A stretch of DNA of 64,000 nt, from contig NZ_JWLD01000044.1 of assembly GCF_000813725.1 (NCBI RefSeq), forward strand, positions 150,540-214,539. Direction: 5' to 3'. This stretch comes from Leisingera sp. ANG-Vp. GTDB taxonomy: Bacteria; Pseudomonadota; Alphaproteobacteria; Rhodobacterales; Rhodobacteraceae. The notes beneath the pieces were generated by a model. The model saw only the letters and a program-made list of their open reading frames with translations, had not been told where the DNA came from and made no database searches. Below, one piece after another: positions 15,445 to 25,445 of the stretch (its first letter is position 1; every line of letters begins with the position of its first letter). The translations under genes were made by a program, and so were the position numbers.

Positions 15445-16584
15445 TTACTGGGAATAGGACTTGAGATAGGCAATCACCGCCTCGATGTCCCCTTCCTTTT
15501 TCAGTCCTGCAAAGGACATCTTGGTCCCCTTCATGTATTTCTTCGGCTTGGCCAGAAAGGCCGCCAGTTCGGCTTCATCCCAGACCAGCCCGCCTTCGGC
15601 CGCCGCCTTCATCGCCTTGGAGTAGCGGAACCCCTCCACGTAGCCGGCAGGCGCACCGATAATGCCGTTCAGGATGGGCCCCGTCTTGGACTTGGCCCCG
15701 TCGCCGACCTGGTGGCAGGCCTTGCACTTCTTGAAGGTCTTTGCGCCCTTCGCCACCAGTTCCGGGTCCAGAACAGCTGCCGCTTGGACAGGCTCCTCCG
15801 CCTCTGCCTCCTCAACCGGCGCGGCATCACCCGAGGCCGCGGCGCTTTCTTCCTCCGGCGTCACGTCCAGCACCATGGCGCGCATGGTGATCTCAACGCT
15901 GTCCTTGCAGTTCTCCATGCACGGCTCCGGGTTCCAGAAGTGCTTCTCCGCCTCCAGCCGGTCATCCAGGATGAAGCCTTCCGCATTCGGCAGCTCCACA
16001 TCAGCAAAAGTCCCGTCCGACAACACGAACTCGTCATCCACCAGATCGTTGGAATAGAGGATATAGGCCACAATAGCATAAACCTCGTCCGCGGTCAGAG
16101 ACTGCGCGTCGCCAAACGGCATCGAGCGGTTCACATAGTCCCAGGTGGTCGACAGATACGGCCAGTAAGAGCCCACAGTTTTCAGCGGGTCATCATGGTC
16201 CAGCGTATCCTGCCCGCCTGCCAGCTTGGGCCAGTTGCCGACGCCTTCGGCAAAGTCGCCGTGGCAGACGGCGCATTTCTCGGCAAAGACCTCCTCGCCG
16301 GTGAACACATCGCCCGAGCCTGCGGGCAAGCCGGTGCCATCGGGGGCAACGTCCAGATCCCAGGCGGCGATTTCCTCCGGCAAGGCGGGGCGGCCAAGGC
16401 CGATTTTCTCAGCAACCGCCGGTGAAACAACTGCCAAAGAAAACACTGCCGCAGCAACAATGTTTCGCCCGGCGGCGACGCCGGGCAGCGCCCGTCCGCC
16501 CCCTCGGGCGGGCGCTACGCTTTCCGCCCGCGGACGGGAGCCGCCCTCAGTGGGCCTCATCAACCCGTTAAGAAACTTCGACAT
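15445..16584 (-). CDS. soxD: SoxD, diheme c-type cytochrome of sulfane dehydrogenase
   Basis: A 379-residue cytochrome partner of SoxC in the SoxCD sulfane dehydrogenase, which removes six electrons from the SoxYZ-bound sulfane. Heme sites are CAVCH (104-108) and CKACH (287-291), joined by an acidic, Ala-rich linker (about 240-275). ATG 16584 overlaps the soxC end by 17 bp. The N-terminus is unusual: about 40 residues of Arg/Gly/Pro-rich sequence precede the hydrophobic core of the signal peptide (NIVAAAVFSLAVVSPAVA), and this stretch is encoded by a cluster of palindromes (16467-16545). A later start cannot be excluded, but no better ribosome site was seen. Confidence 0.93.
   Translation of the reverse strand: MSKFLNGLMRPTEGGSRPRAESVAPARGGGRALPGVAAGRNIVAAAVFSLAVVSPAVAEKIGLGRPALPEEIAAWDLDVAPDGTGLPAGSGDVFTGEEVFAEKCAVCHGDFAEGVGNWPKLAGGQDTLDHDDPLKTVGSYWPYLSTTWDYVNRSMPFGDAQSLTADEVYAIVAYILYSNDLVDDEFVLSDGTFADVELPNAEGFILDDRLEAEKHFWNPEPCMENCKDSVEITMRAMVLDVTPEEESAAASGDAAPVEEAEAEEPVQAAAVLDPELVAKGAKTFKKCKACHQVGDGAKSKTGPILNGIIGAPAGYVEGFRYSKAMKAAAEGGLVWDEAELAAFLAKPKKYMKGTKMSFAGLKKEGDIEAVIAYLKSYSQ
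16467..16545. repeat. Palindrome cluster inside the soxD signal-peptide region
   Basis: Three GC-rich inverted repeats are packed in 79 bp. They are GCCCGGCG-GCGA-CGCCGGGC (16467-16486), AGCGCCCGTCCG-CCCCCT-CGGGCGGGCGCT (16487-16516, one mismatch, given as arm-loop-arm), and overlapping small palindromes around TCCGCCCGCGGA. The cluster is read in frame as SoxD residues about 14-40. It looks like a REP-type palindromic unit tolerated in a non-conserved n-region. Confidence 0.6.
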
Positions 16585-17839
16585 TTTCCGCCTCCCCGTT
16601 TGCCTTGACCCACCAGGTCTGGATGGCGTTGTTGTGATAGATCGAATTCAAGCCCCGCACCTCGCGCAGCTGCGCCTTGGTTGGCTGCACATATCCGGAA
16701 GAATCCTTGGCGCGTGCTTGCAGCAGCATTTCGGAACCGTCCCAATTGATATCCAGGTAGAACCGCGTCAGCGCCTTGTCTGTGCCTGGAGCCGCCAGCC
16801 GCGCCTCCTGCCAGCTCTTGCCGCCGTCCAGCGACACATCCACGCCGGTGATAGAACCGCGCCCCGACCAGGCCAGCCCGGTGATCACCAGCGGCCCCTT
16901 GCCATGCTTGATCGGCGCCTGCGGGCTGGGGCTGGTGACAACGGATTTCGCGTCCATCTCCCAGGTCCACTTGCGGCTGACGCCATTGGCCAGCGTGTCG
17001 GTGTATTTCGAGGTCTCCTCGCGGCTTTCCACCGGCTGGTCCATGACCTCAACCCGGCGCAGCCATTTGACCCACATATTGCCTTCCCAGCCCGGCACCA
17101 CCAGCCGCACCGGATAGCCATGCTCCTTGCGCAGCGCCTCGCCGTTGGCCTTGAAGGCGACCAGCACGTCGTCCATCGCTTTCTCCAGCGGGATCGAGCG
17201 CCCGTTCGAAGACGCATCCGCGCCTTCCACGTAGACCCACTTGCCCTCGGGGCTGACGCCGGCTTCTTCCAGCAGCGTCCGCAGCGACACGCCGGAATAC
17301 TCCATGTTATGGATCATGCCGTGGGTGAACTGCGCGCCGTTCAGCTGCGCACCGGCCCATTCCATGCCTGAGTTCGCGGCGCATTCGCAGAAATAAACGC
17401 GGTTTTCGCGCGGAAAGCGCTCCAGGTCTTCATAGGTGAACACCAGCGGCGTCTCGACCAGCCCGTTGATCATCAGCCGGTAGTCTTCCTTGCGCAGCTC
17501 GATGGCGCCCGAATGGTGGCGCTCAAAGGCACATCCCTGCGGCGTGATTGTGCCGTCCAGCGCGTGGATCGGGGTGAAGTTGATCGAGCTGATGGTGTCC
17601 GCCGTCAGCCACTCCACGTTGCGGCGCACCACGTCGCTCTCGAACTGGATCGGCATGCCGTAAGGCGTGGCATCCACACCCTCGCCGAGGCCTGAGGCCC
17701 ATTCCTGCACTTCGGTAATCAGCGGATCGGGCGTGGCCGCCCTGGCGGCACCGGCGGCAACAGCCCCTGCCCCGGCAGCCGCCGCTCCTGTCAGGAACTG
17801 GCGGCGCGAAGGCGCCAGGCTCTTGGCGTCATCACTCAT
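16568..17839 (-). CDS. soxC: SoxC, molybdopterin sulfane dehydrogenase subunit
   Basis: A 423-residue enzyme of the sulfite oxidase family, the catalytic half of SoxCD. A Tat signal ([20 protein letters not shown]) exports the folded cofactor-bound protein. The molybdenum-ligand Cys lies in VYFCECAANSG (Cys151 or Cys153). The molybdopterin-binding PVRLVVPGWEGNMWVKWLRR motif and the C-terminal dimerisation domain (about 300-410) are present. AGGAGG precedes ATG 17839. A SoxR-type operator lies 26-43 bp upstream, so soxC probably starts its own transcript with soxD, soxE and soxF. Confidence 0.95.
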   Translation of the reverse strand: MSDDAKSLAPSRRQFLTGAAAAGAGAVAAGAARAATPDPLITEVQEWASGLGEGVDATPYGMPIQFESDVVRRNVEWLTADTISSINFTPIHALDGTITPQGCAFERHHSGAIELRKEDYRLMINGLVETPLVFTYEDLERFPRENRVYFCECAANSGMEWAGAQLNGAQFTHGMIHNMEYSGVSLRTLLEEAGVSPEGKWVYVEGADASSNGRSIPLEKAMDDVLVAFKANGEALRKEHGYPVRLVVPGWEGNMWVKWLRRVEVMDQPVESREETSKYTDTLANGVSRKWTWEMDAKSVVTSPSPQAPIKHGKGPLVITGLAWSGRGSITGVDVSLDGGKSWQEARLAAPGTDKALTRFYLDINWDGSEMLLQARAKDSSGYVQPTKAQLREVRGLNSIYHNNAIQTWWVKANGEAENVEVS

Positions 17840-17864: not shown

Positions 17865-17882
17865 AATTCACTTTCGTGAATT
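17865..17882. promoter_or_regulatory. Putative SoxR operator, soxB/soxC gap
   Basis: A perfect 18-bp inverted repeat, AATTCAC-TTTC-GTGAATT, contains the 16-bp core ATTC-N8-GAAT (17866-17881). It lies 26 bp ahead of soxC and is the most symmetrical of four such sites in the sox locus. Confidence 0.75.
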
Positions 17883-17905
17883 CAACTGAGCAAAATTTTT
17901 TACGG

Positions 17906-17943
17906 TTCCCCGTCAGGGGAAGATTGACCTGCCCCGCCGGGGC
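17906..17943 (-). terminator. Hairpins after soxB
   Basis: Two stems follow the soxB stop on the minus strand: GCCCC-GCC-GGGGC (17931-17943) and TTCCCC-GTCA-GGGGAA (17906-17921). An A/T-rich stretch (TAAAAAATTTT) comes next. Without a clean T run they may act as a partial terminator or 3'-end stabiliser ahead of the soxC promoter. Confidence 0.5.
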
Positions 17944-17952
17944 GGGCGCCGC

Positions 17953-19650
17953 TTAAGCGCCTGCCACCTGCACGGAGGTGTTCGGGTTCAGGGTCACGGT
18001 GCCAAGCTTGCGGATATGGTCCTCGACCACATCCCAGATCATCGGCCCTTCGGTGCCCTCGTTCACGCTGGCCCAGCCGGCCACGACGTAGGATTTCGCC
18101 GGATCAATCGCCTCGCCTGTCTTCAGCAGCGTCATATCGGTGATCCGCTCGCCTTGCGGCTTGGTGATGTCGATCCGGTAGCCCATGCCGCCGATCCGCA
18201 CCATGTCGCCGCCCTGCTGGTAATAGGGGTCCGGGTTGAAGATGTTGTCAGCCACATCCTCCAGGATCACCTTGATGAATTCCCCGGTCATCTCGGACCG
18301 GTAGGCCTGCCCGTAAGACATCGATGTCACGTTCCAGATATCCTCGCGGGTGATATTGTCTCCCGGCACCAGCGACGGTCCCCAGCGCACGCCCGGAGAC
18401 ATGGCAATATCCGCCTCCCGCTCGCTCAGCAGCGCATCGCAGATCAGGTCGTCCCAGGTGCCATTGAAATTGCCGCGGCGGTACAGCAGCGTATCGGTCT
18501 GGCCGATCACTTCCTCCAGCTGCGCCTTAAAGGGCGCGCGCTCGGCATCAATCAGCTGCGCCACCGCCGGGTCCGGCGCGATCACGTCCGAGAACACAGG
18601 GATCAGCTTGTGCCGCAGGCCCATCAGCTGGCCGTCGCGCACGTCCAGATCAATGCGCGAGACAAATTTTCCGTTCGATCCGGAAGCAATGATATGGGTC
18701 TTGTCCACCAGCACCGGTTCGGGCAGCGCGTCGTGGGTGTGGCCCGACAGGATCACGTCAATGCCCTGCACCTTGCCCGCCATCTTCTTGTCGACGTCAA
18801 AGCCGTTGTGGCTCAGCACCACAACCAGATCAGCGCCCGCGGCGCGGACCTCATCCACCATCGCCTGCATGTTCTCGTCACGGATGCCGAAGGAATACTC
18901 CGGGAACATCCAGCCAGGGTTGGCGATCGGCATATAAGGGAAGGCCTGGCCGATCACCGCCACCTTTGCGCCGCCGCGCTCAAAGAACTTGTAGGGTTTG
19001 AACAGCTCAGCCGGTTCATCCCATTCAGCATCAAAGATGTTCTGGCCAAGCGCCGCAAAAGGCAGGCCCTCGACGATCTCGTTCACCCGCTCGGACCCCA
19101 GCGTGAATTCCCAGTGAAAGGTCATCGCATCGGGCTTCAGCGCGTTCATTACATTGACCATGTCCTGGCCCGCCGTGTGATGGCAGGTGTAGGAGCCATG
19201 CCAGGTGTCGCCGCCGTCAAACAGCAGCGCATCGGGACGGTCGGCGCGGATGGCGTTGATGATCGTTGCCATCCGGTCCAGCCCGCCAACCCGGCCGTAT
19301 CCTTTGGCGAGCGACGAGAAATCATCATAGGTCAGCGCATAGGCCGAGGGGCTGCCATCATTGATGCCATAGGCCTTGCGGAAGTCGGCGCCGGTGATAT
19401 GCGGCACATGGCCCTTGTTGCCGCCGACGCCCAGATTGATCGATGGCTCGCGGAAATAGATCGGCTTCAATTGCCCATGAATATCAGTCACATGGATCAG
19501 GCTGATGTTGCCGAAGGTGTCAAACTCCAAGAGCTGGTCCTGGGTCAGCGACTGCTGGGCAGCCAGCCGCGCCCAATTGCCAAAGCCTGACGCCCCCACC
19601 ATGGCCGATGCCGCCATGGAAACCTGCAGAAAATCGCGGCGCGAGATCAT
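17953..19650 (-). CDS. soxB: SoxB, thiosulfohydrolase
   Basis: A 565-residue dimanganese hydrolase that releases sulfate from SoxYZ-bound S-sulfonate. Start 19650 gives the Tat signal MISRRDFLQVSMAASAMVG. The metallophosphatase domain shows ISLIHVTDIHGQLKPIYFRE, LLFDGGDTWHGSYTCHHTAG, and VVLSHNGFDVDKKMA ... VILSGHTHDALPEP; the C-terminal half is the 5'-nucleotidase-type substrate domain. AGGA precedes the ATG at an 11-nt spacing. A SoxR-type operator sits 33 bp upstream and a terminator-like hairpin separates it from soxA, so it is probably transcribed on its own. Confidence 0.97.
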   Translation of the reverse strand: MISRRDFLQVSMAASAMVGASGFGNWARLAAQQSLTQDQLLEFDTFGNISLIHVTDIHGQLKPIYFREPSINLGVGGNKGHVPHITGADFRKAYGINDGSPSAYALTYDDFSSLAKGYGRVGGLDRMATIINAIRADRPDALLFDGGDTWHGSYTCHHTAGQDMVNVMNALKPDAMTFHWEFTLGSERVNEIVEGLPFAALGQNIFDAEWDEPAELFKPYKFFERGGAKVAVIGQAFPYMPIANPGWMFPEYSFGIRDENMQAMVDEVRAAGADLVVVLSHNGFDVDKKMAGKVQGIDVILSGHTHDALPEPVLVDKTHIIASGSNGKFVSRIDLDVRDGQLMGLRHKLIPVFSDVIAPDPAVAQLIDAERAPFKAQLEEVIGQTDTLLYRRGNFNGTWDDLICDALLSEREADIAMSPGVRWGPSLVPGDNITREDIWNVTSMSYGQAYRSEMTGEFIKVILEDVADNIFNPDPYYQQGGDMVRIGGMGYRIDITKPQGERITDMTLLKTGEAIDPAKSYVVAGWASVNEGTEGPMIWDVVEDHIRKLGTVTLNPNTSVQVAGA

Positions 19651-19682
19651 GTGTACCGGTATCCTGTGTGCTTGCGCGACAT

Positions 19683-19698
19683 ATTCGCACAAATGAAT
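19683..19698. promoter_or_regulatory. Putative SoxR operator, soxA/soxB gap
   Basis: ATTCGCACAAATGAAT has the ATTC-N8-GAAT layout of the other three sox sites. It lies 33 bp ahead of soxB, just beyond the terminator-like hairpin of soxA. Confidence 0.65.
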
Positions 19699-19702
19699 GT
19701 TT

Positions 19703-19742
19703 AAAAAGAGACACGCCCCGCGCCTGTCAACAGGCGCGGGGC
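19703..19742 (-). terminator. Terminator-like hairpin after soxA
   Basis: A perfect 12-bp stem (GCCCCGCGCCTG / CAGGCGCGGGGC) with a TCAA loop starts 8 bp after the soxA stop. On the minus strand it is followed by GTGTCTCTTTTT, a T run displaced by seven bases. It should end or attenuate the soxXYZA transcript. Confidence 0.75.
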
Positions 19743-19749
19743 GCAAAGA

Positions 19750-20601
19750 TCAGTTGCGGACAGAGGGGGCTTCGACCGACAGCCCGTTGCCGCGCGAGGC
19801 AACATACAGCTCCAGCGCCACAAAGTCCGCCGAACCCGGCTTGTAGGTCTCGGCGCGGGTATCGCGCACGCATCCCTTGAAGCGCGCATGGGCGGTGTTC
19901 AGCTTGGTGTTTTTCAAGCGGTAGACCGGGAAGCCGTTGATCTGGCCCTGGCTCAGATGGTCGGCGCGGATCATGTTGCCATAGTTGTCTTCATGGCAGT
20001 TCGCGCAGGACAGCTCCAGCTGGCCGGTGCGGGTGTAGTACATCTCCTTGCCCTTCTCCCAGGCGGACTGGGCCGGGCCGTCGATGGCCACATTCACCGG
20101 AAGCCCGCGCGACTGGACCGAGATCAGCGCTTCCATCGCCGACATCTTGCCGCCGGTGTACTTCCACTTTTCGGCACCCATGTGGTTTTCGCGGCAGTCG
20201 TTGATCTGCATGTTCAGGGTGCGGACTTCACCGGCGGCCTCGCTCCATTTGGGATAGACCGCGCGCACGCCTTTCATGCTTTCCTCGACATCATCGTGGC
20301 AGGAAGCGCAGGACTTGCCTTCGGTTCCCTCGACGGTGTTCCAGGCATCAAGCGCCTGATCGACAAAGATCATCGCCGGGTTTTCAAAGTCGTCCATCTG
20401 CAGGGCCTGGGTTTCATCCTTGCGGAAGTGCCAGCCCGACATAATCTCATCAACCGCATCCGCAATATGTGCAGGTGCGGCGGCCTTGGTGACCATCTCG
20501 ATTTCCTCGTTGACCACCAGCGTGTCGTCATCGGGGCCTGCACCTGCCGCCATCGGCAGCGCCAACACGGCGGCAATTGCTGTGATTGCCTTCTTATTCA
20601 T
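19750..20601 (-). CDS. soxA: SoxA, diheme cytochrome c subunit of SoxXA
   Basis: 283 residues from ATG 20601 (AGGACAGGGA ribosome site), with signal peptide MNKKAITAIAAVLALPMAAGA. Heme sites are CASCH (98-102) and CANCH (199-203); Cys244 in FKGCVRDTRAE is the persulfide-type active-site Cys. SoxXA couples thiosulfate to SoxY while passing two electrons to cytochrome c. Both heme sites are kept, whereas some SoxA proteins have lost the first. Confidence 0.96.
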   Translation of the reverse strand: MNKKAITAIAAVLALPMAAGAGPDDDTLVVNEEIEMVTKAAAPAHIADAVDEIMSGWHFRKDETQALQMDDFENPAMIFVDQALDAWNTVEGTEGKSCASCHDDVEESMKGVRAVYPKWSEAAGEVRTLNMQINDCRENHMGAEKWKYTGGKMSAMEALISVQSRGLPVNVAIDGPAQSAWEKGKEMYYTRTGQLELSCANCHEDNYGNMIRADHLSQGQINGFPVYRLKNTKLNTAHARFKGCVRDTRAETYKPGSADFVALELYVASRGNGLSVEAPSVRN

Positions 20602-20675
20602 TCCCTGTCCTCCCTTGGGTGCCTGTCCTGCCCGGCGCAAACCGGACAGAACGCGTGCCTGAGATCCGGAACGGA

Positions 20676-21005
20676 TCAGCCGATGGCGATTTTTTTCTTG
20701 GTGTCGTAGACCGAGCCGTCGTCGTCATACCAGGTGAAGACAAATTCACCGGCTTCCGGCACGACGGCGTCGAACTCGAAATAGGGGTTGGTGGAGATCG
20801 CGGGCTCCATTGCCACGTCCAGCACCGTCTCGCCGTTGAAGGCGCAAGTGAAGCGGTTGATGATCGAGCGCGGAATCAGGTTGCCCTCTTTATCCTTGCG
20901 CTGGCCGCTTTCCATCTTGTGGCTGATCAGGGTCTTGATGGTGACCGTATCGCCGGCAGCAGCGGTTTTCGGGACCTTGACGCGGGGTTTAACACCGGAT
21001 GCCAT
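20676..21005 (-). CDS. soxZ: SoxZ, carrier-complex subunit
   Basis: A 109-residue all-beta protein, the partner of SoxY in the SoxYZ carrier. Family marks are KPRVKVPKTAAAGDTVTIKT, LISHKMESGQRKDKEGNLIP, and the C-terminal FVFTWYDDDGSVYDTKKKI. It has no signal peptide and is exported as a passenger of Tat-borne SoxY. AAGGAG precedes ATG 21005. A small GATCCG-GAA-CGGATC hairpin overlaps its stop (20663-20677). Confidence 0.96.
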   Translation of the reverse strand: MASGVKPRVKVPKTAAAGDTVTIKTLISHKMESGQRKDKEGNLIPRSIINRFTCAFNGETVLDVAMEPAISTNPYFEFDAVVPEAGEFVFTWYDDDGSVYDTKKKIAIG

Positions 21006-21049
21006 GTCTTTAATTCTCCTTAAGAATTCCGTTCAGAGAGCGGGCAGCC

Positions 21050-21466
21050 TCAGCCGCCGCAGCCGCCGATGGTCACTTTGACGGTGGCGCTTGCCTTGGC
21101 GAAGGAGCCATCGGCCAGCTTGGCCACCGCAACAACGTCCTGGGTGCCTGCCAGGCGGATCCGGGTCGAGGCCGACTGCTGTGCCGCACCGGGGCCGAAG
21201 TTGAAAGTTGCCACACCCGGTTCCGGGTTTCCGGTGGCCAGCACCAGGATCGCGGTGGCGCCGGGCGCCTCGACCGAGATCGGAACAGTGTTGCCGTTCT
21301 CGGCAATCTCGGGCGCGTTCAGGGTGACGCCGCCCTCGGCCATATCGGCACCGCCGGTAAAGGCGGCGATCCGGTCGTCTGCTGCGGCGTTCACCTGGAA
21401 CGGCAGCACGGTTACCACGGCAGCGCCCAGGCCCAGGGCCAGGGTCTCACGGCGTGAGAACTCCAT
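21050..21466 (-). CDS. soxY: SoxY, sulfur-carrier subunit
   Basis: 138 residues. Three in-frame Met codons compete; 21466 is chosen because AGGAG lies 7 nt upstream and the protein starts at the Tat signal MEFSRRETLALGLGAAVVTV. The C-terminus is the swinging-arm GGCGG motif (TIGGCGG), whose Cys136 carries the thiosulfate-derived sulfur through the whole Sox cycle. SoxZ is encoded 44 bp downstream. Confidence 0.96.
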   Translation of the reverse strand: MEFSRRETLALGLGAAVVTVLPFQVNAAADDRIAAFTGGADMAEGGVTLNAPEIAENGNTVPISVEAPGATAILVLATGNPEPGVATFNFGPGAAQQSASTRIRLAGTQDVVAVAKLADGSFAKASATVKVTIGGCGG

Positions 21467-21526
21467 CATATCTCTCCTATTCATTCACACAGGCTGCAGC
21501 ACCGGACGCGAGGCCCGGCCCGCGCC

Positions 21527-22003
21527 TCACTCTTCTTTCAGCGTCGCGAGGAACGCGACCACATCCTCAATCTCCTGCGCCGTCAGGATCGGCGGCAGCG
21601 GCTCGGCCCCGGCATCGCCGGTATAAGCGTCGCCCGGGCGGATGAAGCCATCGACCTTGTAGAAGGCCGGCATCATGGTGCCCTCGAATGTCATCTTGGC
21701 ATTGGCCACCAGCCCGCGCAGTTCTTCCTCGCTCCAGCGGTCGCCTGCGCCGTCCAGCGACGGGCCGATCTCGCCATGGAAGGGAACATCCGCCAGCGCG
21801 CTTACTTGATGGCAGGCCACGCAGTTGCCCTTGGACTTGGTGCCTGCAATCACCGCACCGCTGGCAGCGTCGCCCGCAACCCCGGTCAGCGAGGCGGAAA
21901 CTTCGCCGTATTCGCCGTACTGCACCGCTTTCGGAGCAACCTCTCCGGCCATCGCCGCGGCACCCGCCAGGCTCAGCGCCAGTGTCAGAGATGTAAGCTT
22001 CAT
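21527..22003 (-). CDS. soxX: SoxX, monoheme cytochrome c subunit of SoxXA
   Basis: 158 residues from ATG 22003 (GGGAGGA ribosome site), signal peptide MKLTSLTLALSLAGAAAMA. The single heme site is CVACH (61-65), and the C-terminus (LTAQEIEDVVAFLATLKEE) is typical of SoxX. It partners SoxA. A 127-bp gap upstream separates it from soxW and holds a SoxR-type operator, marking soxX as the first gene of the main soxXYZA transcript. Confidence 0.95.
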   Translation of the reverse strand: MKLTSLTLALSLAGAAAMAGEVAPKAVQYGEYGEVSASLTGVAGDAASGAVIAGTKSKGNCVACHQVSALADVPFHGEIGPSLDGAGDRWSEEELRGLVANAKMTFEGTMMPAFYKVDGFIRPGDAYTGDAGAEPLPPILTAQEIEDVVAFLATLKEE

Positions 22004-22088
22004 GTATCCTCCCAATGGCTGCCGCATCTTTGTGCGGTTGCTTCGTTTCTGCATACCGTAGGCCACAGCCGGACCATTACGCAACAAC

Positions 22089-22108
22089 AAATTCATTATT
22101 GTGAATTT
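22089..22108. promoter_or_regulatory. Putative SoxR operator, soxW/soxX gap
   Basis: A 20-bp inverted repeat, AAATTCA-TTATTG-TGAATTT, contains the ATTC-N8-GAAT core at 22091-22106. It lies 86 bp ahead of soxX in an A/T-rich island where a promoter is expected. Confidence 0.72.
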
Positions 22109-22130
22109 TTGCAATTTGTGCGCCGGACCC

Positions 22131-22724
22131 CTAGTCTGCGGATCCATTATTGCGCTCTTGGATCATCCGCGCGTGGTAGCGCTGGAAATCTTCCCCGTTA
22201 TCAAGCGCATACCGCTTTTCATTGACCCATGTAAACATGTCCAGCGTGGTTCCCGCGCCAAAGGCGCCCGGCATCATCGCCACCGCAGCTTCGGGGGCTG
22301 TAGCTTCTTCAGCCACCTCCTCCGGCAGGAACAGAATCGTCGGTGTGAACAGCACGCCCCATTTGCGCGCCATCTCTTTCTCCGGCAGCGCTTGGCCGTC
22401 GAAGTCGGTGACCTCCACATCGCCATAAAGGTTCAGCTGCACGACAAAGAAATTCTCTTCGATGTACTGGCTGATTTCCGGCCGGGGAAAGGTCTCCTCA
22501 TGCATCTTGGTGCAATAGATGCAGCCGCGCTGCTCAAAGATCAGCGCCAGCCGTTTGCCCTCGCCATTGGCTTCGTCCAGATCCTCGCGCAGGTCCTTGA
22601 AGGTCTCCCGCATCCAGGAGGTCTTGTGCAGACCGTCATCCCCAAGCTCTGCCGCAGACAGGGGAACGGCCATGGGCACCGCCAGCACCGCCGCCATTAA
22701 CACTTTCGCAAGACTTCTCAGCAT
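22131..22724 (-). CDS. soxW: SoxW, periplasmic thioredoxin
   Basis: A 197-residue thioredoxin-like protein with a Sec signal peptide (MLRSLAKVLMAAVLAVPMAV) and redox motif CIYC (Cys68, Cys71). The cis-Pro region is WGVLFTPTILFLP. SoxW receives electrons from SoxV and is thought to keep the Sox system reduced or active. It lies 19 bp after soxV and forms a two-gene unit with it. Confidence 0.92.
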   Translation of the reverse strand: MLRSLAKVLMAAVLAVPMAVPLSAAELGDDGLHKTSWMRETFKDLREDLDEANGEGKRLALIFEQRGCIYCTKMHEETFPRPEISQYIEENFFVVQLNLYGDVEVTDFDGQALPEKEMARKWGVLFTPTILFLPEEVAEEATAPEAAVAMMPGAFGAGTTLDMFTWVNEKRYALDNGEDFQRYHARMIQERNNGSAD

Positions 22725-22743
22725 GTTGACCTCCGCACTTCAC

Positions 22744-23481
22744 TTATCCAATTGAGCTGAATCCCGGCATCCAGCGGATCATTGTCTCGGCAATCAGCCG
22801 CACCCCGCCAGTGGCGATCAGCACCGCAAACAGCACCAGCATGGCGCCCATTCCCCTTTCCACCCAGCCAAAGGCTGCGCGGTGCCGCGCCACCCACCCC
22901 AGAAACGGCTTGGCAAACAGCGCCGCCACGACAAAGGGCGCCGTCATTCCCAGCCCGTAGACCAGCAGCAGCACGCCGCCGCGCCAGATGTCGCCCATGC
23001 CCGACGCGATCATCAGGATCGAGGCCAGCGCCGGCCCCACGCAGGGTGTCCAGCCAAAGCCGAAGGCCAGCCCCATCAGATAGGCGCCCAGCACTGTTGA
23101 AGGTTCCGCCGCACTCTCCATCCGCGCCTCGCGGTACAGCAGCGGGATGTTCACAACACCCAGGAAATGCAGCCCGAACAGCAGCAAAAGCGCGGCCGCG
23201 AAATAAGACAGAACCTCCAGGTACTGCCCGAACAGCTGCCCCAGCGCCGTTGCCCCCATGCCCATCAGCATGAACACTGTGGTCACTCCGGCAGCAAAAC
23301 ACACCGCCGATACCAGCAGCCGCCGCTGTGCTCCGGCGTTAATTGCACCGTCTCCGCGCAGTTCCGCCATCGACAAACCGCCCATGTAAGAGAGGTAAAA
23401 CGGCACCATCGGCAGAATGCAGGGGGTGAAAAAGCTCAGCAAACCTGCGATCAAAGCGCCAAACAGGGTAATCTCGAGCAT
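22744..23481 (-). CDS. soxV: SoxV, CcdA-type membrane thiol-electron transporter
   Basis: A 245-residue, six-helix membrane protein of the CcdA/DsbD-beta family that carries electrons from cytoplasmic thioredoxin to the periplasm. Conserved Cys lie in FTPCILPMVPF and GWTPCVGPALAS. Start 23481 is preferred to 23499 because GGGGGAGG sits immediately upstream. It probably reduces SoxW (next gene) and perhaps SoxS. It diverges from soxS across 106 bp that hold a SoxR-type operator. Confidence 0.93.
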   Translation of the reverse strand: MLEITLFGALIAGLLSFFTPCILPMVPFYLSYMGGLSMAELRGDGAINAGAQRRLLVSAVCFAAGVTTVFMLMGMGATALGQLFGQYLEVLSYFAAALLLLFGLHFLGVVNIPLLYREARMESAAEPSTVLGAYLMGLAFGFGWTPCVGPALASILMIASGMGDIWRGGVLLLVYGLGMTAPFVVAALFAKPFLGWVARHRAAFGWVERGMGAMLVLFAVLIATGGVRLIAETMIRWMPGFSSIG

Positions 23482-23528
23482 TGCCTCCCCCTGGCCCACG
23501 CGAACGTTATCGGGCCCCGGCTTGTGTC

Positions 23529-23544
23529 ATTCACATATTCGAAT
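23529..23544. promoter_or_regulatory. Putative SoxR operator, soxS/soxV divergent promoter
   Basis: ATTCACATATTCGAAT fits ATTC-N8-GAAT. It overlaps a candidate plus-strand promoter for soxS (TTCACA at 23530, 16-bp spacer, TATTAT at 23552), so bound repressor would block it, and it is placed to control soxVW as well. Confidence 0.68.
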
Positions 23545-23587
23545 TACGTTGTATTATACAGACCCGTCAACATGTGGAATGACATAG

Positions 23588-23971
23588 ATGCGCATGATCC
23601 GGCAACTGGCTGCAGCCGCTGCCATGACCCTCACGGCCCTGCCCGCCTGGGCGGCCGAGCTGGTAATGGTCGAGCAAGCGGGATGCGAATGGTGTGCCCG
23701 CTGGGACGAGGAAATCGCCCCGATCTACCCCAAGACGGCCGAAGGCAAGCACGCCCCGCTCCGCCGGGTCGACCTGCGCGATTTGCCGGGTGACCTGCAG
23801 GTGAGCCGCCGGGTCATGTTCACACCAACCTTTCTGGTGGTTGAGGACGGCAAGGAACAGGCCCGGCTCGAAGGCTACCCGGGTGAAGATTTCTTTTGGC
23901 CTTTGCTGGCAGATTTGCTAACCGCCCATACAGGGTTTGTTGATAATACGCACACTCAGGGCGGCAGCTGA
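23588..23971 (+). CDS. soxS: SoxS, periplasmic thioredoxin-like protein
   Basis: A 127-residue protein with a Sec signal peptide (MIRQLAAAAAMTLTALPAWA) and a CEWC redox pair (Cys33, Cys36), then the cis-Pro segment VMFTPTFLVVEDG. In Paracoccus, SoxS reactivates SoxYZ by reduction. Start may be 23588 or the second Met at 23594; neither has a strong ribosome site. It is the first gene of soxSRT. Confidence 0.9.
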   Translation: MRMIRQLAAAAAMTLTALPAWAAELVMVEQAGCEWCARWDEEIAPIYPKTAEGKHAPLRRVDLRDLPGDLQVSRRVMFTPTFLVVEDGKEQARLEGYPGEDFFWPLLADLLTAHTGFVDNTHTQGGS

Positions 23972-24030: not shown

Positions 24031-24369
24031 ATGGCACTACCGCAGTTTTCCGCGGACATGGATCCGGCAGAAATGGACAAGATGGTCGACAACGCGACCA
24101 AGGCCTCCAATTTTCTCAAGGCGATCAGCCATGAGGGCCGCCTGATGATCCTGTGCCACCTGGTATCAGGCGAGAAATCGGTGACCGAGCTGGAGGAGCT
24201 CCTGTCGGCCCGCCAGGCCGCCGTCTCCCAGCAGCTCTCCCGTCTGCGCCTGGAAGGGCTGGTCATTCCCCGGCGCGAGGGCAAGGCAATCTACTACCGC
24301 CTGGCAGACGATAAACCCCGCCGGATGCTGGAAACGGTTTACGACCTCTTCTGCAACGACGGCAGCTGA
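24031..24369 (+). CDS. soxR: SoxR, ArsR-family repressor of sox genes
   Basis: A 112-residue winged-helix repressor (LKAISHEGRLMILCHLVSGE, then recognition helix ARQAAVSQQLSRLRLEGLV). It keeps two Cys, 42 and 108, at the same positions as the persulfide-forming pair of SqrR and BigR. That makes it a likely sensor of sulfane sulfur or thiosulfate products: reduced protein would bind DNA and the modified form would release. AGGAG precedes the ATG. A 7-bp stem (23999-24016) lies in the leader. Four ATTC-N8-GAAT repeats in the locus are its probable targets. Confidence 0.93.
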   Translation: MALPQFSADMDPAEMDKMVDNATKASNFLKAISHEGRLMILCHLVSGEKSVTELEELLSARQAAVSQQLSRLRLEGLVIPRREGKAIYYRLADDKPRRMLETVYDLFCNDGS

Positions 24370-24386: not shown

Positions 24387-25445
24387 ATGTTTGACCTCCT
24401 CTCAGAACACCAGCTGGCCGCCTGCTTCGGGTTGCTGGGCGGTGTGCTGCTTGGGCTTGCCGCGCGGCTGGGGCGCTTCTGCACCCTCGGCGCGATCGAA
24501 GACCTGCTATACGGCGGCTCGTCCCTGCGGATGCGCATGTGGGGCGTGGCCATCGGTGTCGCCGTCACCGCCAGCTTTGCCCTGATGGGCATTGGGCTGG
24601 TCGATGCCACCCAGTCCTTCTATCTCACGATCCGCTGGATGCCTGCCGCTTCGATCCTCGGCGGTTTGATGTTCGGCTACGGCATGGCGCTCAGCGGGAA
24701 CTGCGGCTACGGCGCCATTGCCCGGCTTGGCGGCGGCGACCTGCGCAGCTTTGTAATTGTGCTGGTAATGGGCGTCTCGACCTATGTGGTGCTTGCAGGC
24801 CCCCTCGCCCCGCTGCGAAACTTCTTCTTTGAACAGCAGGACGTCACCACTGACATCCCGCCGGGCCTGGCCCACTACGCTGCCGCCTGGAGCGGCCTGC
24901 CTCTGGCCACAATAGGCGTCGCCGCAGGCGTTCTGATCCTGCTGGCCTCCCTCGCCAGCGCAGAAATCCGCAAGGACAAACAGGCGCTGCTCTGGTCCGC
25001 CATCGTGGGACTGGCCGTCACCTCCGGCTGGGCGGGAACCACATACGTCAACACCGAAGGGTTTGAAGCACTGCCGGTGGCCTCCCACTCTTTCTCAGCC
25101 CCCTTGGGCGAGACCATCCTCTGGACCATGACCGGCAGCTTGCGCCCCCTCTCCTTTGCCGTCGGCTCCATCGCCGGGGTCTGGACCGGCGCCTTCATCG
25201 GCTCGCTGATCAAGGGTCACTTCCGCTGGGAAGCCTGCGAAGACCCGCGCGAGCTGCGCCGCCAGATCATTGGCGCTGCCATCATGGGAGCCGGGGCGGT
25301 CATTGCCATGGGCTGCACCGTTGGCCAGGGCCTTAGCGCCTTTTCCCTGCTGGCCGTTTCTGCACCAGTCACCATGCTGGCAATCTTTGCCGGCGCTGCC
25401 ATCGGCTTGCGTCAGCTGATCGAAGGCTTCCGCCCGGCAGAGTAA
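24387..25445 (+). CDS. soxT: SoxT-type YeeE/YedE membrane transporter
   Basis: A 352-residue membrane protein with two copies of the YeeE/YedE (sulf_transp) motif. The first holds LAARLGRFCTLGAIEDL and GMALSGNCGYGAIARLGGGD; the second holds GAVIAMGCTVGQGLSAFSLL. The conserved Cys in these motifs pass thiosulfate in TsuA/YeeE. Here it follows soxR by 17 bp and so should move a sulfur compound or act in sulfur signalling, as proposed for SoxT. The direction of transport is not shown by the sequence. Confidence 0.9.
   Translation: MFDLLSEHQLAACFGLLGGVLLGLAARLGRFCTLGAIEDLLYGGSSLRMRMWGVAIGVAVTASFALMGIGLVDATQSFYLTIRWMPAASILGGLMFGYGMALSGNCGYGAIARLGGGDLRSFVIVLVMGVSTYVVLAGPLAPLRNFFFEQQDVTTDIPPGLAHYAAAWSGLPLATIGVAAGVLILLASLASAEIRKDKQALLWSAIVGLAVTSGWAGTTYVNTEGFEALPVASHSFSAPLGETILWTMTGSLRPLSFAVGSIAGVWTGAFIGSLIKGHFRWEACEDPRELRRQIIGAAIMGAGAVIAMGCTVGQGLSAFSLLAVSAPVTMLAIFAGAAIGLRQLIEGFRPAE

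Follow-up and report, generated by a model that had tools for sequence, protein, structure and literature searches.

Roseobacters are important marine thiosulfate oxidizers, and in other sox loci the gap between soxW and soxX is the second of two gaps controlled by the repressor SoxR. We have analysed a stretch of 64,000 nucleotides from Leisingera sp. ANG-Vp (contig NZ_JWLD01000044.1, positions 150,540 to 214,539; hereafter the window) carrying a sox locus in which a 16-bp palindrome of the layout ATTC-N8-GAAT recurs four times, and compared it with the closest described systems. The first of the two gaps is that between soxS and soxV, from which soxSR and soxVW are transcribed divergently by SoxR-regulated promoters (PMC5748708, in part); the earlier note on this DNA had spoken of two such gaps in other sox loci, and its statement is borne out by this source for soxS/V. 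The SoxR systems of Paracoccus pantotrophus and P. denitrificans are arranged as in the window, with soxR-soxS divergent from soxVW, and SoxR of Pseudaminobacter salicylatoxidans KCT001 is, according to the title of its paper and to citing passages, an ArsR-type dimeric repressor of the sox operon. SoxR of Hyphomicrobium denitrificans responds to sulfane sulfur and shares with the window protein two conserved cysteines 66 residues apart, Cys50 and Cys116 (PMC10451225, in part). Unlike the window, H. denitrificans has a truncated Sox system without SoxCD and soxYZB in one arrangement; its SoxR also affects the shdr genes, its sites are described, in the passages available, as inverted and direct repeats, and the fragments bound by SoxR are also bound in vitro by sHdrR (PMC12423496, in part). 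The operator layout of the window is that of Rhodobacter capsulatus SqrR (PMC9774250, in part), which, unlike SoxR here, controls sulfide-dependent photosynthesis genes (PMC10451225, in part), while YgaV, a relative of SqrR, binds a promoter lacking ATTC-N8-GAAT (PMC9774250, in part). The attribution of this layout to both SqrR and BigR in the earlier note holds for SqrR; for BigR, no match was found in PMC5823870.

In the P. pantotrophus DSM 11072 and P. denitrificans HAMBI_2443 plasmid loci the best matches to the palindrome have one mismatch in the soxS/V gap and two before soxX, two mismatches in 140 bp being weak evidence. Unlike the window genome, neither locus has a match with up to two mismatches in the 140 bp before soxB, soxC or soxH, and in both soxH and the sox cluster share one stretch, whereas the soxH-like gene of the window genome is on another contig. 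The presence of soxB and soxC sites therefore sets the roseobacter layout apart from these two loci. Operators before soxB, soxC or soxH of thiosulfate oxidizers were not reported among the titles and abstract openings listed by a search that left RegPrecise and subscription papers outside. From the sequence we predict a conserved SoxR-type regulon, in which a familiar type of control would take on a new arrangement. The core of the earlier note, a probable SoxR regulon of four promoters within one locus, is upheld by recurrence of the sites in relatives and by a hairpin before soxB, and needs correction in the form of the soxS/V site, the patchiness of the soxC site and the extension to soxH outside the locus.

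Four palindromes in the sox gaps

The window contains exactly four matches to ATTC-N8-GAAT, all within sox intergenic gaps and all exact, as had been claimed. Candidate SoxR operators are located before soxC (ATTCACTTTCGTGAAT, 17866..17881), before soxB (ATTCGCACAAATGAAT, 19683..19698) and before soxX (ATTCATTATTGTGAAT, 22091..22106), each on the minus strand, and a shared candidate lies in the divergent soxS/soxV gap (ATTCACATATTCGAAT, 23529..23544). Computed from site and gene coordinates, the sites end 26 bases before the start codon of soxC, 32 before soxB, 87 before soxX, 47 before soxV and 43 before soxS, the soxB start being taken as 19650 (MISRRDFLQ...) and not as the longer mechanical open reading frame (ORF) start at 19746. 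Nor is the pattern equally frequent elsewhere, a result that by the earlier note would have refuted the regulon: the window genome (5,150,147 bases) holds 33 such places, four of them in the sox locus, compared with three for the reversed pattern. With the 29 other sites spread uniformly as background, a model that leaves gap base composition outside, 0.032 sites are expected in the 5.68-kb stretch and four are seen (Poisson P(≥4) = 4e-8).

Recurrence of the sites was followed in the sox loci of the best 80 of 577 SoxB relatives, a sample in which close kin are therefore over-represented. Gaps were left out where a gene was not found or lay on the wrong strand or where the gap exceeded 600 bp, leaving 70 soxV/W, 70 soxW/X, 74 soxB/C, 63 soxC/D and 79 soxS/V gaps. 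The exact palindrome is present in 68/70 soxW/X, 24/80 soxA/B, 21/74 soxB/C and 3/79 soxS/V gaps, and with up to one mismatch in 62/80, 27/74 and 25/79 of the latter three, respectively. Five other types of sox gap lack an exact palindrome throughout the 80 loci, and the reversed pattern has no match in any gap. On a position weight matrix (PWM) derived from the soxW/X sites, 56/80 soxA/B, 27/74 soxB/C and 26/79 soxS/V gaps score above the 99% level of their shuffles, but only 2/320 gaps of the five other types do. The distance to the start codon is nearly constant, with medians of 31.5 bases for soxB (62 loci), 26 for soxC (27 loci) and 86 for soxX (69 loci), in keeping with the claim that the sites lie ahead of sox gene starts.

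Several observations weigh against the reading of these sites as operators. At least four matches were reached in 2 of 100 shuffles of the window (mean 0.57), and the exact form is rare in the soxS/V gaps. The five gap types that lack sites have short median lengths of 16.5, 37, 25, 61 and 0 bp, so only soxZ/A is a fair control. Further afield, in L157-L170 (14 loci), an exact soxX site occurs in one locus and a site with up to one mismatch in eight, in L162 at a different distance from the start than usual. Chance palindromes arising in AT-richer gaps, to which the window shuffles lend some weight, are nevertheless a vanishingly improbable explanation, being ruled out as a general account by the genome-wide enrichment and by recurrence in the same gaps of relatives relative to gap-composition shuffles; the exactness of the soxS/soxV palindrome may still be due to chance. 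An exact soxC site occurs in two of the more distant loci, L161 and L169, and L160, with no soxR in its 19.9 kb, has no site with up to one mismatch before soxX, soxB, soxC, soxV or soxS. Exact soxX and one-mismatch soxB sites occur in L156 and an exact soxC site in L089, in both of which a missing soxR is uninformative because the stretches begin inside the sox cluster.

The genes served by these gaps are ordered soxS-R-T on the plus strand, divergent from soxV-W-X-Y-Z-A-B-C-D-E-F on the minus strand, so that soxSRT faces away from soxVW as in SoxR/SqrR-type systems. SoxX (21527..22003, TIGR04485), SoxB (17953..19650, TIGR04486) and SoxC (16568..17839, TIGR04555) score above NCBIfam cut-offs; the remaining genes were named by their synteny with relatives and an annotated Ruegeria locus (L185). 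By this means soxV (22744..23481) matches a CcdA-family gene and soxW (22131..22724) a thioredoxin-family gene of L185, and soxY (21050..21469), soxZ (20676..21005) and soxA (19750..20601) match its annotated counterparts, all on the minus strand. On the plus strand, soxS (23588..23971) has no NCBIfam match and soxT (24387..25445), a YeeE-like transporter gene, matches TsuA models below cut-off, both being named by synteny.

Promoter candidates and the soxB and soxC sites

In the soxS/V gaps of relatives the recurring element is AATNTGAATATGTGAAT, and TGAATATGTGAAT is literally present in 37/79. In the 38 loci with GAATATGTGAAT the element is flanked by TTGACg-N16-CnTAAT towards soxV and by cTTGaa-N17-TAnGTT towards soxS, conserved blocks which, read by eye, correspond in the window to a candidate soxV promoter (TTGACG-N16-CGTAAT, 23543..23570, minus strand) and a candidate soxS(RT) promoter (TTGTGT-N17-TACGTT, 23522..23550, plus strand). 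The operator candidate spans 16 of the latter's 17 spacer bases and is overlapped by the last two bases of the second hexamer of the former (23548-23543). Judged from these alignments, the soxS/V site represents one variant of an asymmetric element that overlaps divergent candidate promoters on both sides, and sharing with promoter sequence would explain why in most relatives its left half differs from ATTC. At soxX, a strongly conserved TTGTTGTTGCGt comes after the operator candidate of relatives, with TAcGGT 18 bases further on; conserved blocks of 67 relatives, again read by eye, place a candidate promoter in the window at 22055..22084 on the minus strand (TTGCGT-N18-TACGGT), with the operator candidate ending 6 bp upstream. 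On the other side of the balance, a consensus promoter scan of the region found none of the candidate soxS, soxV and soxX promoters and returned one match where 1.6 were expected, TTCACA-16-TATTAT at 23530, an alternative soxS promoter candidate; a terminator scan gave eight matches against 5.1 expected.

Between soxA and the soxB operator candidate lies a terminator-like hairpin (19712..19745, minus strand) of 15 pairs followed by TCTCTTTTTA, with a folding energy of -33.2 kcal/mol (z -7.2). All 80 soxA/B gaps fold below -10 kcal/mol (median -24.9), as do 97% of soxW/X and 68% of soxZ/A gaps, so this cut-off alone is no marker of transcript ends and the comparison detracts from the argument. 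The order of hairpin and then site suggests that the soxXYZA unit closes with a terminator-like element, after which a SoxR-type site leads into soxB. For the soxB/C gap of the window a strong terminator was also considered and dropped, as this gap folds no better than its shuffles (z -0.38), a result that likewise counts against the proposed control. A number of the soxB sites (soxA/soxB gaps, L016-L095) read ATTCACACATGCGCATGTGTG, within which lies a second palindrome, CACACATGC/GCATGTGTG, perfect over 18 bp and offset in its centre, and their GTGT extension is common to some soxH sites; a double or extended binding mode is possible.

The soxC site is, by its distribution, lineage-specific. 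It is found with up to one mismatch in 27 of the 35 soxB/C gaps of at least 70 bp and in none of the 39 shorter ones. On a tree of SoxB plus SoxC (81 rows, six of them without a soxB/C label, built by a quick method) its distribution needs 13 gains or losses, at least eight across well-supported branches, compared with 22.8 in shuffles, indicating that the site is inherited in patches and often gained or lost. It is present in the nearest kin of the window (L016 and L019) and absent from Phaeobacter QD34_24 (L017).

The soxB and soxC copies might alternatively be roadblocks at which SoxR halts read-through from upstream promoters, with no promoters of their own. This explanation, which we consider unlikely but of appreciable weight, would account for the lack of a sigma-70 consensus match in either gap and for the position of the sites, a median of 31.5 and 26 bp before the start codons of soxB and soxC. 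It fits less well with the strong terminator-like hairpin before the soxB site of the window and the folds in every soxA/B gap, as a hairpin there would make a downstream promoter useful, or with a like site at similar distance before a soxH-like gene, which is independent of sox read-through because that gene is on another contig. For soxB and soxC as separately controlled from soxXYZA, another claim of the earlier note, the hairpin argues in favour at soxB, while at soxC the restriction of the site to 27/74 gaps limits the claim.

A soxH-like gene and the reader of the sites

A fifth exact site, ATTCACACATGCGAAT, is located at C79:36023, on a different contig from the sox locus and about 30 bases before a soxH-like gene of the metallo-beta-lactamase (MBL) fold; it is the commonest exact soxB form among relatives. 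The gene product scores 136.4 against a cut-off of 280 and 121.8 against 300 with SoxH-related quinoprotein hydrolase models of NCBIfam and matches MBL domain models below their cut-offs, and it has an export signal as read by eye. It agrees with SoxH in being an apparently exported MBL-fold protein with relatives encoded in or near sox clusters, and the MBL hydrolase ending the sox cluster of Ruegeria sp. SCSIO 43209 is 58% identical to it. Matches at E≤1e-40 occur in 39 of 90 family genomes, with at least 55% identity in 35 and only 38-39% in four. Location of soxF and/or soxH away from the sox cluster has been described (PMC11034169, in part).

Contig positions of the 30 best soxH relatives were compared with those of soxB, soxH being counted as unlinked if on a different contig or over 50 kb away (20 genes) and as linked within 15 kb (10 genes), a linkage that draft contigs may hide. 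An exact site lies within 70 bases of the start in 15/20 unlinked but only 1/10 linked genes (G007; Fisher P = 0.001). Two further unlinked genes (G005, G031) have a site with a single mismatch and three (G039, G016, G024) were counted as none, although G039 has a one-mismatch match 12 bases before the start, where it covers the likely ribosome-binding site; the linked gene of G043 has a one-mismatch match 60 bases before its start. By script rule, sites with up to one mismatch precede 18/20 unlinked and 2/10 linked genes. Caution is required as linkage is confounded with kinship, the linked genes also being more diverged, and as C79:36023 ranks seventh of the 33 genome sites on the soxX-trained matrix, with C83:64203, C72:8750 and C68:32695, all off-locus, scoring above it. 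The SoxR regulon nevertheless probably leaves the sox locus and reaches the unlinked soxH-like gene.

A crude gene picker placed 21 of the 29 off-locus palindromes, 10 inside and 11 outside ORFs, and an ORF starts within 250 bp of seven of the latter, including C79:36023. Further targets may be found among the other six (C52:34521, C52:81109, C52:81167, C68:32695, C79:24471 and C129:17210). A search with the soxB type allowing two mismatches returned C79:36023, C57:141059 and the soxS/V site; C57:154989, which resembles the soxS/V site, was set aside as it lies inside an 818-aa ORF. The palindromes at C52:81109 and C52:81167 (locus L107) are 58 bases apart, 23 and 81 bases before a 183-aa ORF; being unlike the sox type in inner sequence, they may belong to another regulator.

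The product of soxR (24031..24369, plus strand) is an ArsR/SmtB-family protein by profile (NF033788, 81.3 bits against a cut-off of 55). It aligns best with ArsR chains 13ct and 6o8k-6o8o (E ~3e-36, residues 14-109); a structure search names the ArsR family only, and we take 6o8k-6o8o to be SqrR, the closest solved structures. Cys42 and Cys108, 66 residues apart, align with cysteines of the best chain, and palindromes of the ATTC-N8-GAAT layout lie in the sox gaps at the predicted target promoters. The score against the BigR equivalog NF040642 is 98.2 bits, below the cut-off of 155, and the regulator was filed as SoxR, not BigR, on synteny.

The sites might instead serve chiefly another SqrR/BigR-like ArsR protein of the same genome, or both proteins together, an explanation we regard as improbable. 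The candidate (C62:23783-24109, locus L117) is 52% identical to SoxR and has both sensing cysteines and the stretch RQAAVSQ of SoxR, and in H. denitrificans joint control by SoxR and sHdrR, which bind common fragments in vitro (PMC12423496, in part), has been suggested. Two genomes (G255 and G288, loci L154 and L155) also count against SoxR as sole reader, having only unlinked homologues of 55-57% identity while retaining an exact soxX site. The genome of L016 argues for SoxR, with four exact sites, one close SoxR (91%) and a next homologue of only 37%, as does that of L082, which has a 60% unlinked homologue only and no sites at its sox genes. Moreover, no exact or one-mismatch site was found in 3.3 kb around the C62 homologue, which adjoins enolase-superfamily-like and fumarylacetoacetase-like genes as judged by eye from translations. 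One genome without a SoxR homologue at E≤0.001 (G128) carries its sox cluster in full from soxS to soxD and lacks any site with up to one mismatch before soxX, soxB, soxC, soxV or soxS; two others (G029 and G164) lack a SoxR homologue and have no such site before soxB or soxC, soxX being not found or off the contig. By this distribution the sites are very likely read by a SoxR-type protein, and SoxR itself is the best candidate. The sox clusters of L154 and L155 have no soxR in the fetched stretch, and an unlinked homologue could possibly have taken over their soxX site. Roseobacter-type sox loci were also found in records titled Nocardioides marinus DP1N28-1 (L016), Enemella evansiae TN21-6 (L076) and a Flavobacteriia metagenome-assembled genome (L048); as the SoxR coordinates of L016 are those of G238, of the window's own genus, at least this record name looks wrong.

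Predicted control and its meaning

We consider it likely that the four repeats are operators of the SoxR encoded in the cluster and that control extends to soxH. SoxR would act as an ArsR-type repressor sensing sulfane sulfur, sitting as a dimer on its operators when oxidizable sulfur is absent. In the soxS/soxV gap a dimer would shut two divergent promoters together, including that of its own soxS-soxR-soxT transcript, and a second would shut the soxX promoter; others would occupy the soxB entry point, just past the terminator-like hairpin ending the soxXYZA unit, and the soxC entry point. By analogy with SqrR and with SoxR of H. denitrificans (PMC10451225, in part), the protein would leave the DNA once a polysulfide bridge joins Cys42 to Cys108. 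The fifth operator, of the soxB type, would bring the unlinked soxH-like gene into the same regulon.

More speculatively, the roseobacter sox operon may be split into modules (soxVW/SRT, soxXYZA, soxB, soxCDEF and soxH), each with its own SoxR operator of different sequence quality, such that SoxB, the hydrolase, and SoxCD, the sulfane dehydrogenase, would be inducible at different levels of sulfane sulfur. If true, the cell could tune complete versus partial oxidation or the sharing of sulfur, and the switch of the soxC module would have been repeatedly gained and lost between close relatives.

A defined operator with five predicted targets, two of which (soxB and soxC) fall within a unit commonly depicted as a single operon and one (soxH) on another contig, would make the SoxR regulon of roseobacters directly testable, the repeated gain and loss of the soxC site providing a natural test series. 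The role of soxH is unsettled, and the predicted operator before the soxH-like gene would give it a regulatory tie to thiosulfate oxidation.

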